In this document: positions 16,251 to 20,553 of the stretch, piece after piece | Position numbering within the stretch: the stretch's first letter is position 1 | How the letters are laid out: each line of letters opens with the position of its first letter | DNA from: an uncultured Clostridia bacterium | GTDB taxonomy: Bacteria > Bacillota > Clostridia > UBA1381 | DNA length: 56,233 nucleotides | Reading direction: 5' to 3' | Assembly (NCBI GenBank): GCA_944390495.1 | Contig: CALXQE010000063.1 | Coordinates: forward strand, 1-56,233 | Program-made: the position numbers and the translations under genes | The notes under the pieces: generated by a model | Told to the model about the DNA's origin: nothing | Databases searched by the model: none | What the model saw: only the letters and a program-made list of their open reading frames with translations

Positions 16251-16278
16251 CTCCTGTGCTAAAGGCACAGGAGTTTTT
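16251..16278. terminator. Bidirectional terminator between kduD and the ATP-grasp gene
   Basis: CTCCTGTGC (16251-16259) pairs with GCACAGGAG (16265-16273). A7 precedes and T6 follows, so it serves both convergent operons. Confidence 0.9.
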
Positions 16279-16280
16279 TA

Positions 16281-17612
16281 TTACTTTTTTTCTACAATAA
16301 TTGTTGGAAGTGACATTTCACTATATTGTGTTGAAATAATACTGTTTTTGGCAATTCTTGAATATAATCCTGCCATTTCGCCGTTATACATATAAATACC
16401 GGTTATGTTGCTGTATTTTTTATATTTTGCATTTTCATCATGGGTAATATCAATGTTAATTGTTTCGTATGGTGTGCAGTATTCCTGTAATAAATAGTGA
16501 TTATCAATATTTTCAGAAACTACCTTTTCCCAAGCTTCATCATCCATCCCCTCAACTCCGGCATATACACCCTTTGACGCATACCAATCTTCAGGTTTTA
16601 TAACCCATTTTTCCTTTGTATGAAGCACGTTATATTTTTCTACTGTATCCTTTGTAAGGGAAACGGTATATGGTATGTGTTCCTTTATATACTGTCTTTC
16701 TTCTTCTGTTAAAAATGCAGATGTCTGCTTATCGTGAAGAACCTTAAAAACAATTTTGTTATGTATTACCTGTGTTTTAAAATCTCCGATAAGGCATACG
16801 TTATTGTCCTCAGCTGCTTTTATAAATGGGAGTACCTTATCGTAATTACGCATTATGTCACACGTAACGGCACGTCTGTAAACAGCGTTAATTTGTCTGC
16901 CTGATGGAGAAATTAATTTGTTATTTTCGTATTTTAATTCTGTTATTTCGCAAATTTCACATTCATAGCCTGCATCTTCAAAAGCTTTTTTAAATGCTTC
17001 AAATTCACGGCTTATATCGTTATTGAAAAAATCTACTATTGCCACATACGGTTTTTCAACTGCTTTGTCGTATGTTTTGTAAATTTCGGTAAAAGCTCTT
17101 ACCCAAGAGCCGAAAAGTTCAAAGGTACGTACATTATACTCTTTTATAAATTCATTATATGAACTTGTCAGTTTTATTGCCTGGTTCATTTCCTTGTCCT
17201 CGTTCATGGCACTTGAACCGTCTGCGTTAAACTCACAGAATTTAAAAGAAAAATCATCTTCATTAAAGAATATATCTATTCTTGCAATAGGCAGAGCACA
17301 TTCATAGTGATTAGGACGAAGAATAAGCTTTTCAAGCCTTTCTTCAAATCCGAAAAGTTTTCTGTACTCGCTGTTTGTTTGATATTCGTGAATAACTTTT
17401 TCCAAAATTTTATACATTGTTTTGGCAGATTTTCTTATGTAATCAACCATTTTTTCTGTAAACATTTTTGGCATATACAATGTATGCACATAATATCCAT
17501 GATAACGTGCGGTTTTAGTTTTTATATACTCTTGTTGTATTTTTGCAGTTTTTTTGCTTTCTTCAAAATTGTTGTCTGTAAGTAGTTTATAGTATTCCTC
17601 TGCCTTCTGCAA
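16281..17612 (-). CDS. ATP-grasp ligase of the glutathionylspermidine synthase family
   Basis: A 443-residue ATP-dependent carboxylate-amine/thiol ligase. Family signs are FCEFNADGSSAMNEDKEMNQ (residues about 133-152), the nucleotide-binding lysines in NKIVFKVL and KWVIKPEDWYASKG, and the late YLLQEYC. The amidase domain of Escherichia coli GspS is absent. It overlaps the upstream glutamate-cysteine ligase by 26 bases. The pair would form gamma-Glu-Cys and then extend it with an amino acid or amine. Glutathione is the simplest product, but the acceptor cannot be read from sequence. Last gene of a three-gene minus-strand operon, ending at a shared terminator. Confidence 0.82.
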   Translation of the reverse strand: MQKAEEYYKLLTDNNFEESKKTAKIQQEYIKTKTARYHGYYVHTLYMPKMFTEKMVDYIRKSAKTMYKILEKVIHEYQTNSEYRKLFGFEERLEKLILRPNHYECALPIARIDIFFNEDDFSFKFCEFNADGSSAMNEDKEMNQAIKLTSSYNEFIKEYNVRTFELFGSWVRAFTEIYKTYDKAVEKPYVAIVDFFNNDISREFEAFKKAFEDAGYECEICEITELKYENNKLISPSGRQINAVYRRAVTCDIMRNYDKVLPFIKAAEDNNVCLIGDFKTQVIHNKIVFKVLHDKQTSAFLTEEERQYIKEHIPYTVSLTKDTVEKYNVLHTKEKWVIKPEDWYASKGVYAGVEGMDDEAWEKVVSENIDNHYLLQEYCTPYETINIDITHDENAKYKKYSNITGIYMYNGEMAGLYSRIAKNSIISTQYSEMSLPTIIVEKK

Positions 17613-18804
17613 AGCTGATCGTCTCCTTTAATGTTTTTTTACCGTAAATTATTTCTTTTAGCACCGACAAATATGTTCTGTCTTTTTCGGAAAGGTTATT
17701 ATAAGATGTTTCATATATAAGTTCAGCGGCTTTGTACGCTTTTATACCGTAAACATCTCCGTAAAATCCGTGAAGAATAATTTGCTTTTTAGCGTCTTCT
17801 ATTTGCTCAGTACTGATATTATTAAATATTTGGTTACTATTTTTAAACAGTCCCTTTATAAGTGCGGAGTACGCAAGTACATATTTAATCGGCATACTGT
17901 CTGCGGGACGTATTTCAAGATACTGTTTAAGGCGTACATCAGGAAAGAACATTGATAGTAAATGTTCAATTTCAGGTTCCGTAAGAATTGTATCATTGTA
18001 TATATCACATATTTTTTTACTGCCTGTAAATGAAAAATCATTGTTTTCCGATATAAGAATAGCAGGTGAATTGTAAATATATTCTGCGTATTCTTCAAAG
18101 AAATTGCAGTCTACAATTCCGCAGCGTTCATTGTCAACATTATTCCATATATATGAACGTAAAGTATTTGCGATGAATGGCTTTCCCTCGAAAATAGGTG
18201 AGTTATCACAGATAAGTGCTAAAATCGGACTTAATATATTTGCATATTTTAATTTCTTTATGCAGTCATCTTCGTTTGTAAAGTCGATTGAAACTTGAGT
18301 TGATGCAGTTCCACGCATCATGTTTTTACCGCATATTCCGGTGGATTTAAAGTACATATCCATAAACTCATAACGTTTTTTTGGTATAAGACTTATTTGC
18401 TCTGCCTTTTGCGTAGGCAAGTATCCGGTGCATACTAACCTGTAACCCTTTTCCTCAAGAACAGGATTAACAATGGAAAGAAAGTTATTATAAATACCTT
18501 CGATTTTAGCAAGGTCACTTGAGGGCATAATGCTTATTTCTATTTGTGCACCCGGTTCAAGTGTTATGTGATAATCATCGCAGGAAAGACCGATAAGAAA
18601 ACCTTCGCTGTAAATATGTTTGTTAAAATGCGGTGCAATTTTTTCCATTATGTATTCAACGCCGTTTCTGTATGGCATACATTCACCGTTTTTATTGCAT
18701 ACAAAATGCTCTATTTCAACTCCGACTGCACCTTGATTTGTATCTTTACAGCCCTTTTTTAAATATTCTGTTATACTATGTATGTTCTGTTTGTATATAT
18801 TCAT
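17587..18804 (-). CDS. Glutamate-cysteine ligase family protein (GCS2)
   Basis: Predicted to join glutamate and cysteine through the gamma-carboxyl using ATP, the first step of glutathione-like thiol synthesis. The 405-residue protein shows GAVGVEIEHFVCN near residue 26, the substrate-loop TLEPGAQIEISIMPSSDL near residue 85, and MMRGTASTQVSIDF near residue 166, all hallmarks of GCS2/EgtA-type ligases. It could instead use another amine acceptor, since EgtA and YbdK-like relatives vary. Translational overlap with the ATP-grasp gene strongly suggests a shared pathway. The ATG is 10 bases after the ABM gene. Confidence 0.85.
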   Translation of the reverse strand: MNIYKQNIHSITEYLKKGCKDTNQGAVGVEIEHFVCNKNGECMPYRNGVEYIMEKIAPHFNKHIYSEGFLIGLSCDDYHITLEPGAQIEISIMPSSDLAKIEGIYNNFLSIVNPVLEEKGYRLVCTGYLPTQKAEQISLIPKKRYEFMDMYFKSTGICGKNMMRGTASTQVSIDFTNEDDCIKKLKYANILSPILALICDNSPIFEGKPFIANTLRSYIWNNVDNERCGIVDCNFFEEYAEYIYNSPAILISENNDFSFTGSKKICDIYNDTILTEPEIEHLLSMFFPDVRLKQYLEIRPADSMPIKYVLAYSALIKGLFKNSNQIFNNISTEQIEDAKKQIILHGFYGDVYGIKAYKAAELIYETSYNNLSEKDRTYLSVLKEIIYGKKTLKETISFAEGRGIL

Positions 18805-18814
18805 AAAAACTCCG

Positions 18815-19114
18815 TCAGCAGAATACAGTTGGTACTTTAGTAAGCTGTTCTATCTGCACATCTCCATTAGTAATAGGTGTTATATTATCAATGAATTTTT
18901 TAAAATGAGGTGCGTTGTTATGTTGTTCTATTGCTGTATCATTTAGCCATTCCTCAACAAATGTAAACTTTGATGTATCGTTTCTGCTTTGATATATTTT
19001 ATATGCAATATTTCCTTTTTCTTTGCGTGTATCACGTACTACATCTACGGCACATTTTTTAAATTCATCAACGTGTCCGGGAAGTACGTCAAATTTTGCT
19101 ATTATAGTAATCAT
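18815..19114 (-). CDS. Antibiotic biosynthesis monooxygenase (ABM) domain protein
   Basis: A 99-residue ferredoxin-like alpha-beta barrel protein of the YgiN group, starting MITIIAKFDVLPGHVDEF and containing FVEEWLNDTAIEQHNNAPHF. Relatives oxidise quinols or remodel small aromatic and heme-type substrates without cofactors; many have no known substrate. First gene of the operon with the glutamate-cysteine ligase and ATP-grasp ligase, suggesting a stress or thiol-redox role. GGAGCTG precedes the ATG. Confidence 0.82.
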   Translation of the reverse strand: MITIIAKFDVLPGHVDEFKKCAVDVVRDTRKEKGNIAYKIYQSRNDTSKFTFVEEWLNDTAIEQHNNAPHFKKFIDNITPITNGDVQIEQLTKVPTVFC

Positions 19115-19202
19115 AATAAATTCAGCTCCTTAAAATAAATCTTCTTAATTATACCATATTTATAGAGATTTTACAAGTAATTTTGCAGTGAATTGTAATA
19201 GC

Positions 19203-19272: not shown

Positions 19273-20553
19273 ATGGATAAGAATAAATTTATAACGGATA
19301 ATTTCGGAATATCGAAAGAAGCGGCCCGATTAATTAACGAGGCGGAAGCTGATGTTAAGGAGCAGTTTAAGTATATAGAAGATATATGTGAAATAAATCA
19401 GCTTAAAGTTATGAAGGCTTTTGCAGACAACAGAGTTTCAGACAGTCACTTTGTTGCAACTACCGGTTATGGATATGATGATTTGGGACGTGACACACTT
19501 GACAGAGTTTATGCAGATATAATGAACGCAGAAGATGCACTTGTACGTCACAACTTTATATCAGGCACTCATACTATTTCAACGGCACTGTTTGCCGTGT
19601 TAAGACCGGGAGATACGTTAGCATCAATTACAGGTAAGCCTTATGATACGCTTGAAGAGGTAATAGGAATACAGGGCGAAGAAGGAAACGGTTCGTTAAA
19701 GGATTTCGATGTTGACTATGTTCAAATAGATCTTAAAGATGACGGTATGCCCGATACAGAAGAAATCAAAAAATTACTTACATCAAGAAAGATAAAAGCG
19801 GTAGCAATACAGCGTTCAAAGGGATACGGCTGGAGACCGACATACAGCTCAAAGGAAATAGGAGAGCTTATATCTTTTGTAAAGGAAATATCACCTGAAA
19901 CTATTTGTATAGTAGATAACTGTTACGGTGAATTTGTAGAGACAGAAGAGCCAACGGAGTACGGAGCAGACCTTATAGCAGGTTCACTTATAAAAAATCC
20001 AGGCGGCGGACTTGCACCCACAGGCGGATATATTGCCGGTAAGGCTAAATATGTGGAGCTTTGTGCATACAGACTTACATCTGTCGGTATAGGTAAAGAG
20101 GCAGGAGCATCTCTTGGTTTTAACAGACAGATGTATCAAGGGCTGTTTTTAGCACCTCATACAGTTTCACAGGCACTTAAAGCAGCTGTACTTTGCAGCC
20201 GTGTGTTTGAGAAATTGGGATTTGAGGTAGATCCAAAACCGAACGAAATACGTCACGATATTATACAGTCAATAAAATTCGGCGATGCTCAAAAGGTGAT
20301 AGAATTTTGTCGAGGAATACAAAAGGGAGCACCTGTTGACAGCTTTGTAACTCCGGAGCCTTGGGATATGCCAGGTTACAGTGATCAGGTTATAATGGCA
20401 GCCGGTGCGTTTGTACAGGGTGCGTCTATTGAGCTATCTGCTGATGCACCGATTAAACCTCCATATATAGCGTATATGCAGGGTGGACTTACTTATGAAA
20501 GTGCAAAGCTTGGAATAATGGTTGCAGCTGATAAAATGCTGAGAAAGGGATAA
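19273..20553 (+). CDS. YnbB/methionine gamma-lyase family PLP protein
   Basis: A 426-residue fold-type I PLP enzyme, often annotated as aluminium resistance protein or methionine gamma-lyase-like. Landmarks: ATTGYGYDDLGRDTLDRVYA, the glycine-rich SGTHTISTALFAVLRPGD, the aspartate-bearing CIVDNCYGEF, and the likely PLP lysine in AGSLIKNPGGGLAP. In Bacillus the homologue ynbB lies near glnR; the true substrate is not established. It begins a short operon with the CpXC and RluA-type genes. Confidence 0.9.
   Translation: MDKNKFITDNFGISKEAARLINEAEADVKEQFKYIEDICEINQLKVMKAFADNRVSDSHFVATTGYGYDDLGRDTLDRVYADIMNAEDALVRHNFISGTHTISTALFAVLRPGDTLASITGKPYDTLEEVIGIQGEEGNGSLKDFDVDYVQIDLKDDGMPDTEEIKKLLTSRKIKAVAIQRSKGYGWRPTYSSKEIGELISFVKEISPETICIVDNCYGEFVETEEPTEYGADLIAGSLIKNPGGGLAPTGGYIAGKAKYVELCAYRLTSVGIGKEAGASLGFNRQMYQGLFLAPHTVSQALKAAVLCSRVFEKLGFEVDPKPNEIRHDIIQSIKFGDAQKVIEFCRGIQKGAPVDSFVTPEPWDMPGYSDQVIMAAGAFVQGASIELSADAPIKPPYIAYMQGGLTYESAKLGIMVAADKMLRKG

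Follow-up and report, generated by a model that had tools for sequence, protein, structure and literature searches.

Described routes to glutathione use GshA together with GshB, the eukaryotic pair of enzymes, or GshF (PMC10295655; PMC7278568). A GshF-type enzyme has been described in Clostridium perfringens (PMC2940859), and a plant-type ligase has been reported in Pelobacter carbinolicus, for which the second enzyme is not known (PMC3543383). The thiol of many anaerobic Clostridia, if they make one, is unsettled, and annotation seeks gshA, gshB or gshF. Kino and colleagues (2007) reportedly showed that C. acetobutylicum has a GshF-type system split into two proteins, which makes glutathione.

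The window analyzed here, a single stretch of 56,233 nucleotides from a 2.32-Mb assembly in 113 contigs, holds an operon that encodes a glutamate-cysteine ligase (GCS2) and an ATP-grasp ligase (GRASP), preceded by an ABM-domain protein (ABM). As with GshA and GshB of E. coli and alphaproteobacteria, the two ligases would carry out two successive ATP-dependent ligations, and GCS2 is homologous to the plant and alphaproteobacterial ligase; however, GRASP is not GshB, and the window's genome lacks the corresponding family PF02955. GshF and the split C. acetobutylicum pair likewise reportedly proceed through gamma-Glu-Cys to glutathione in Firmicutes, and the fusion seen in GshF has a counterpart in one GRASP homologue that is also fused to a ligase, but in GshF the ligase is of the E. 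coli type and the synthetase resembles D-Ala-D-Ala ligase, whereas GCS2 and GRASP come from other families. We propose that the operon probably represents a two-step route to a glutathione-type thiol, in which GCS2 acts first and GRASP second, with glycine as the presumed acceptor.

Organization of the operon and the GCS2 ligase

The three genes are arranged on the minus strand in the order ABM, GCS2, GRASP (Table 1). Only 10 bases separate the end of ABM from the start of GCS2, and the initial annotation was correct both in placing an ABM protein ahead of GCS2 (Pfam ABM, 70.3 bits, E 1.6e-19) and in reporting a 26-base overlap of the GCS2 and GRASP reading frames, such that GCS2 terminates within GRASP. 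The GRASP start codon is TTG (17612), with AAAGGAG ten bases upstream (Shine-Dalgarno sequence at 17629-17623). Because a promoter-like site precedes ABM and a terminator-like hairpin lies directly past GRASP, the three genes are likely transcribed as a single unit; an Rfam scan found no Rfam elements inside or close to the operon. The divergent neighbor at 19273-20553 belongs to the methionine gamma-lyase family (PF06838, 1.8e-194) and also adjoins the operon in many relatives, reflecting either a sulfur link or plain synteny. Near relatives carry names such as uncultured Clostridia, Oscillospiraceae and Lachnospiraceae bacteria.

Table 1. Features of the ABM-GCS2-GRASP locus (positions in the window)
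Feature	Position	Strand	Basis and remarks
Candidate promoter-like site	19148-19176	minus	consensus scan; TTGTAA-17-TATAAT, TG before second hexamer
ABM	18815-19114	minus	Pfam ABM; Shine-Dalgarno AAGGAG at 19131-19126; 99 aa
GCS2	17587-18804	minus	Pfam GCS2, TIGR01436, PDB 6gmo/2gwc; 405 aa
GRASP (ATP-grasp ligase)	16281-17612	minus	AlphaFold2 model, fold matches, residues; 443 aa
Terminator-like hairpin	16251-16273	both	9-10 bp, T-run on both strands; common to convergent SDR gene

With regard to GCS2, the protein matches the Pfam GCS2 family above its cut-off (90.9 bits, E 1.2e-25), and residues 11-323 align with plant chloroplast glutamate-cysteine ligases (PDB 6gmo/2gwc, E 1e-39); annotated glutamate-cysteine ligases on Paracoccus and Ruegeria plasmids align as well. 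The NCBIfam plant ligase model TIGR01436 gives 182 bits, under its curated equivalog cut-off of 463.15, and the second best model, EgtA (108.5 bits, E 3.3e-31), also remains under its curated cut-off. By homology, GCS2 is a glutamate-cysteine ligase of the plant/alphaproteobacterial type that is too distant to be named by TIGR01436. Seventeen aligned GCS2 proteins have about 60 invariant columns in common, and these are intact in the window's protein apart from a five-residue loop deletion; the five loop residues are kept in the aligned relatives, except that one relative lacks two of them. Differences from the closest GCS2-bearing relative fall mostly at third codon positions and no stops occur, a pattern suggestive of purifying selection, weaker than that on GRASP.

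Fold and catalytic residues of GRASP

Searches with the single GRASP sequence (Pfam, NCBIfam, and PDB by phmmer) returned nothing useful, such that profile and fold comparisons were needed; GRASP currently goes unnamed in annotation because it reaches no curated NCBIfam cut-off. Relatives of GRASP match circularly permuted ATP-grasp models (up to 2.5e-11) and GSP_synth models (up to 3.1e-14). The AlphaFold2 model of GRASP is confident (pLDDT 90.8, pTM 0.90). Its closest solved folds are YgiC (Z 30.7), YjfC (Z 29.3) and GspS (Z 28.4), followed by glutathione synthetase from potato with gamma-Glu-Cys bound (5oes; Z 28.1 over 399 residues), 3kal, a homoglutathione synthetase (Z 28.0), and human glutathione synthetase (2hgs; Z 27.7); these six matches span 357-415 residues each, and 1m0w matches as well (Z 26.4). 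By comparison, the match of the model to bacterial GshB (1gsa) is partial (Z 8.8) and limited to the C-terminal 215 residues; the GSH-S_ATP family (PF02955) did not match the window's protein and matched one of 27 relatives, at 3.6e-4. The predicted resemblance to eukaryotic glutathione and homoglutathione synthetases thus covers the whole length of the fold (Z 24-28) and includes the Mg, ATP and Arg residues and the Tyr-x-Arg loop, but identity is only 11-15%, and no match to the Pfam eukaryotic glutathione synthetase family was listed for any GRASP member scanned. GspS, YgiC and YjfC share the GRASP fold, with catalytic residues that pair one by one, but GRASP differs from them in that it has no amidase domain and that its gene is paired with one for a glutamate-cysteine ligase. 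The initial annotation had placed GRASP in the glutathionylspermidine synthase family without an amidase domain; the absence of the N-terminal GspS amidase was borne out by Pfam and by the length of the protein (443 aa), while family membership holds by way of relatives and fold and not by any Pfam match of the protein alone. A search of a phage collection gave no GRASP match. As the fold also occurs in peptide-spermidine ligases (YgiC/YjfC and GspS) and in natural-product ligases (Cp1B), it does not indicate which acceptor GRASP uses.

Profile alignment with E. coli GspS (hhalign E 9e-5), complemented by column counts, paired R111 with R316, D113 with D318, E127 with E330, N129 with N332, S134 with S337, K286 with K498, K339 with K533 and R419 with R598; all eight GRASP residues are invariant in 27/27 class-wide GRASPs. 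The residues that serve Mg binding, ATP binding and phosphoryl transfer in the glutathionylspermidine/glutathione synthetase fold are thus invariant in GRASP with a single Ser-to-Gly change, as every GRASP has Gly132 at the position of GspS S335 and human S149. Class-wide GRASPs also share an invariant Y245-R246-R247, where GspS has W-K-T. In eukaryotic synthetases, the gamma-glutamyl carboxylate is bound by the Arg of a Tyr-x-Arg motif (PMC2845819), and since Y245-R246-R247 falls at this motif, as placed by motif comparison rather than superposition, it hints at a dipeptide site in GRASP. The Tyr-Arg-Arg motif is also present in 3n6x, a protein of unknown function.

Pairing with GCS2 and replacement of the first-step ligase

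Among the 70 genomes of the window's family, GRASP occurs in 36 and GCS2 in 17, and every GCS2 gene adjoins GRASP. A class-wide sample of 391 genomes contained full-length GRASP in 28; GRASP lies directly downstream of GCS2 at 24 of these 28 loci (including one 886-aa fusion), and all 28 genomes have some glutamate-cysteine ligase. Ten genomes of the class sample have GCS2 without GRASP, and GCS2 therefore has roles elsewhere too. In a phylum-wide sample, GRASP was found in 26/398 genomes from 22 genera, and GCS2 adjoined it at 9/9 further Bacillota loci inspected. As the adjacency recurs in dozens of genomes, it exceeds what chance would produce, and the conserved core consists of two genes, GCS2 and GRASP, scattered through Bacillota. 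Of the three-gene synteny raised in the initial annotation, it is this pair that recurs across the phylum; ABM has joined it in some genomes of the window's family only. Inspection by eye of the surroundings of 20 class-level loci for a third conserved partner showed only a few repeated neighbors of cation-efflux-like and ABC type.

ABM precedes the GCS2-GRASP unit in part of the window's family only, and is a local addition to the two-gene core that would serve as an accessory of the operon. It remains beside GRASP where GCS2 is gone. Its best PDB match is PA3566 (E 7.7e-13), with a weaker match to LsrG, and kin of this kind indicate no specific role; an alignment of 18 sequences also underlies the ABM assignment. 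The suggestion that ABM handles oxidized partners found no specific support.

Within the window's genus, GRASP is present in 16/16 genomes (in two pieces in one and as a fragment in another) and GCS2 in only 2/16, such that most of the genus keeps ABM-GRASP without GCS2. This distribution had suggested that GRASP is independent of thiol synthesis, a reading overturned by a search for PF04262, the E. coli-type ligase family unrelated to GCS2: 13/16 genomes carry a PF04262 ligase, and the three that do not are both GCS2 bearers and one assembly that is 84% complete. Among the 36 GRASP genomes of the family, 35 have a glutamate-cysteine ligase, with GCS2 in 17, a GshF-type PF04262 ligase in 19, and both in a single genome. 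Across all 70 genomes, GRASP and a ligase occur together in 35, GRASP without a ligase in one and a ligase without GRASP in one (Fisher 1.7e-17, before correction for kinship). The GRASP tree requires at least four independent GCS2/PF04262 switches, in all of which the two change in opposite direction; a phylogeny-aware test of the exclusion gave p 0.125, four pairs being too few to reach 0.05. The same swap pattern is seen in a distant class member (G412), where a PF04262 ligase is encoded two genes from GRASP. The ligases that took the place of GCS2 are similar to GshF in its ligase half and lack the synthetase half.

GCS2 has thus been repeatedly replaced by an unrelated ligase while GRASP was kept, a clear instance of the first step of a pathway passing several times to an enzyme of another family. 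GshB (PF02955) is absent from 15/16 genomes of the genus, including that of the window. Because a ligase of one kind or the other accompanies GRASP and GshB is missing from all but one genome of the genus, we infer that GRASP very probably consumes gamma-Glu-Cys, whichever ligase supplies it. An EgtC-like amidotransferase was also considered as a required partner; a strong match was found in only 7/16 genus genomes and not in that of the window. At three loci of the replacing PF04262 ligase (L163:128-3672, L165:2893-6280 and L167:3394-6774), the GshF-type ligase occurs together with an EgtC-like class II amidotransferase and a highly divergent GCS2-like protein (about 460 aa; TIGR01436 E ~1e-11, no Pfam match).

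Proposed route and alternative readings

In the proposed route, GCS2 would use ATP to join the gamma-carboxyl of glutamate to cysteine, yielding gamma-Glu-Cys; GRASP would then convert the cysteine carboxylate of gamma-Glu-Cys to an acyl phosphate at the expense of ATP and react this with an amine; glycine is the likeliest candidate and would give glutathione. Glycine is assumed as the default acceptor because GRASP occupies the place of the missing synthetase, and glutathione is the likeliest product of the unit. On this reading, GRASP would act as a glutathione synthetase that shares no sequence relationship with GshB or GshF. It would join GshB, GshF and the eukaryotic synthetase as a further, separately recruited second-step enzyme, and many genomes could be flagged as thiol makers despite an unnamed second enzyme. 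We found no earlier report of the GRASP family as the second step of thiol synthesis, a weak negative since most subscription papers lay outside the literature covered. The initial annotation had left the product as glutathione or another gamma-Glu-Cys thiol; the type of the first ligase, the fold of GRASP, the pairing, the fusion and the GCS2 swap all favor a thiol of this class, with glutathione the most probable of the candidate products.

It is possible, though we consider it unlikely, that GRASP joins gamma-Glu-Cys to another amino acid (a homoglutathione-like gamma-Glu-Cys-Xaa) or to a polyamine (gamma-Glu-Cys-spermidine) and so makes a new thiol. Such acceptors are conceivable because the folds closest to the GRASP model include peptide-spermidine ligases, with YgiC first and homoglutathione synthetase close as well; a peptide-spermidine ligase activity is reported for YgiC (PMC12568646, reference 48). 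GspS-type polyamine ligases, however, act on glutathione or peptides, and the window's genome has no GshB to supply glutathione; in addition, GRASP has the Tyr-x-Arg of glutathione synthetases where GspS has W-K-T. A broad amino-acid range would have a parallel in the glutathione synthetase of C. acetobutylicum, which is unrelated to GRASP and reportedly takes many amino acids (Kino 2007). Equally tentative is the broader idea that GCS2-GRASP constitutes an undescribed low-molecular-weight thiol route, widespread in anaerobic Bacillota, whose conjugate is not glutathione and represents a new thiol of gut and rumen bacteria; we regard this as doubtful. On plasmid pSRC2 of Selenomonas ruminantium (L084:2993-7335), the GCS2 and GRASP genes flank one for a 577-aa MATE-type exporter in a single run, which suggests that certain hosts may export the thiol or a conjugate.

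That GRASP makes some other amide, with GCS2 serving a separate thiol or amino-acid pathway and sharing the operon incidentally, appears improbable to us. The many ABM-GRASP loci without GCS2 in the window's genus would fit such a separation, as would the replacing PF04262 ligases, which lie in separate loci and are accompanied in some cases by an EgtC-like amidotransferase, and the distant GRASP-related ligases in natural-product-like clusters without GCS2 (on Mesorhizobium and Pantoea plasmids); yet GRASP genomes free of GCS2 carry the unrelated glutamate-cysteine ligase, and the presence of such a ligase in 28/28 class-sample genomes with full-length GRASP, together with the fusion protein, argues for a shared pathway. 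The Pantoea agglomerans cluster, on the 38-kb plasmid pNBBC01-5 (L086:6491-16821), encodes in addition to the distant GRASP relative a diaminobutyrate transaminase, ThiF, TauD, two more ATP-grasp-type ligases and an MFS exporter.

Finally, an ergothioneine-like route with gamma-Glu-Cys as a mere sulfur donor (EgtA-like) would accommodate the EgtA match of GCS2 and its pairing with an EgtC-like class II amidotransferase in other Clostridia, but it is highly improbable here, given that the plant ligase model scores far above EgtA (182 vs 108.5 bits), that the partner is a ligase rather than EgtB, EgtC or EgtD, and that the window's genome has only weak amidotransferase-family matches, unlike the strong EgtC-like ones in relatives. 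The GCS2 and EgtC-like pairs, which occur in Clostridia genomes without GRASP (L131:6202-8287, L132:1950-3954, L134:5990-7964, L135:5141-7112 and L137:5722-7705), possibly represent a separate gamma-glutamyl pathway; GATase_4 was confirmed for the L131 and L134 amidotransferases, and ABC-transporter genes adjoin the pair at two of the loci.
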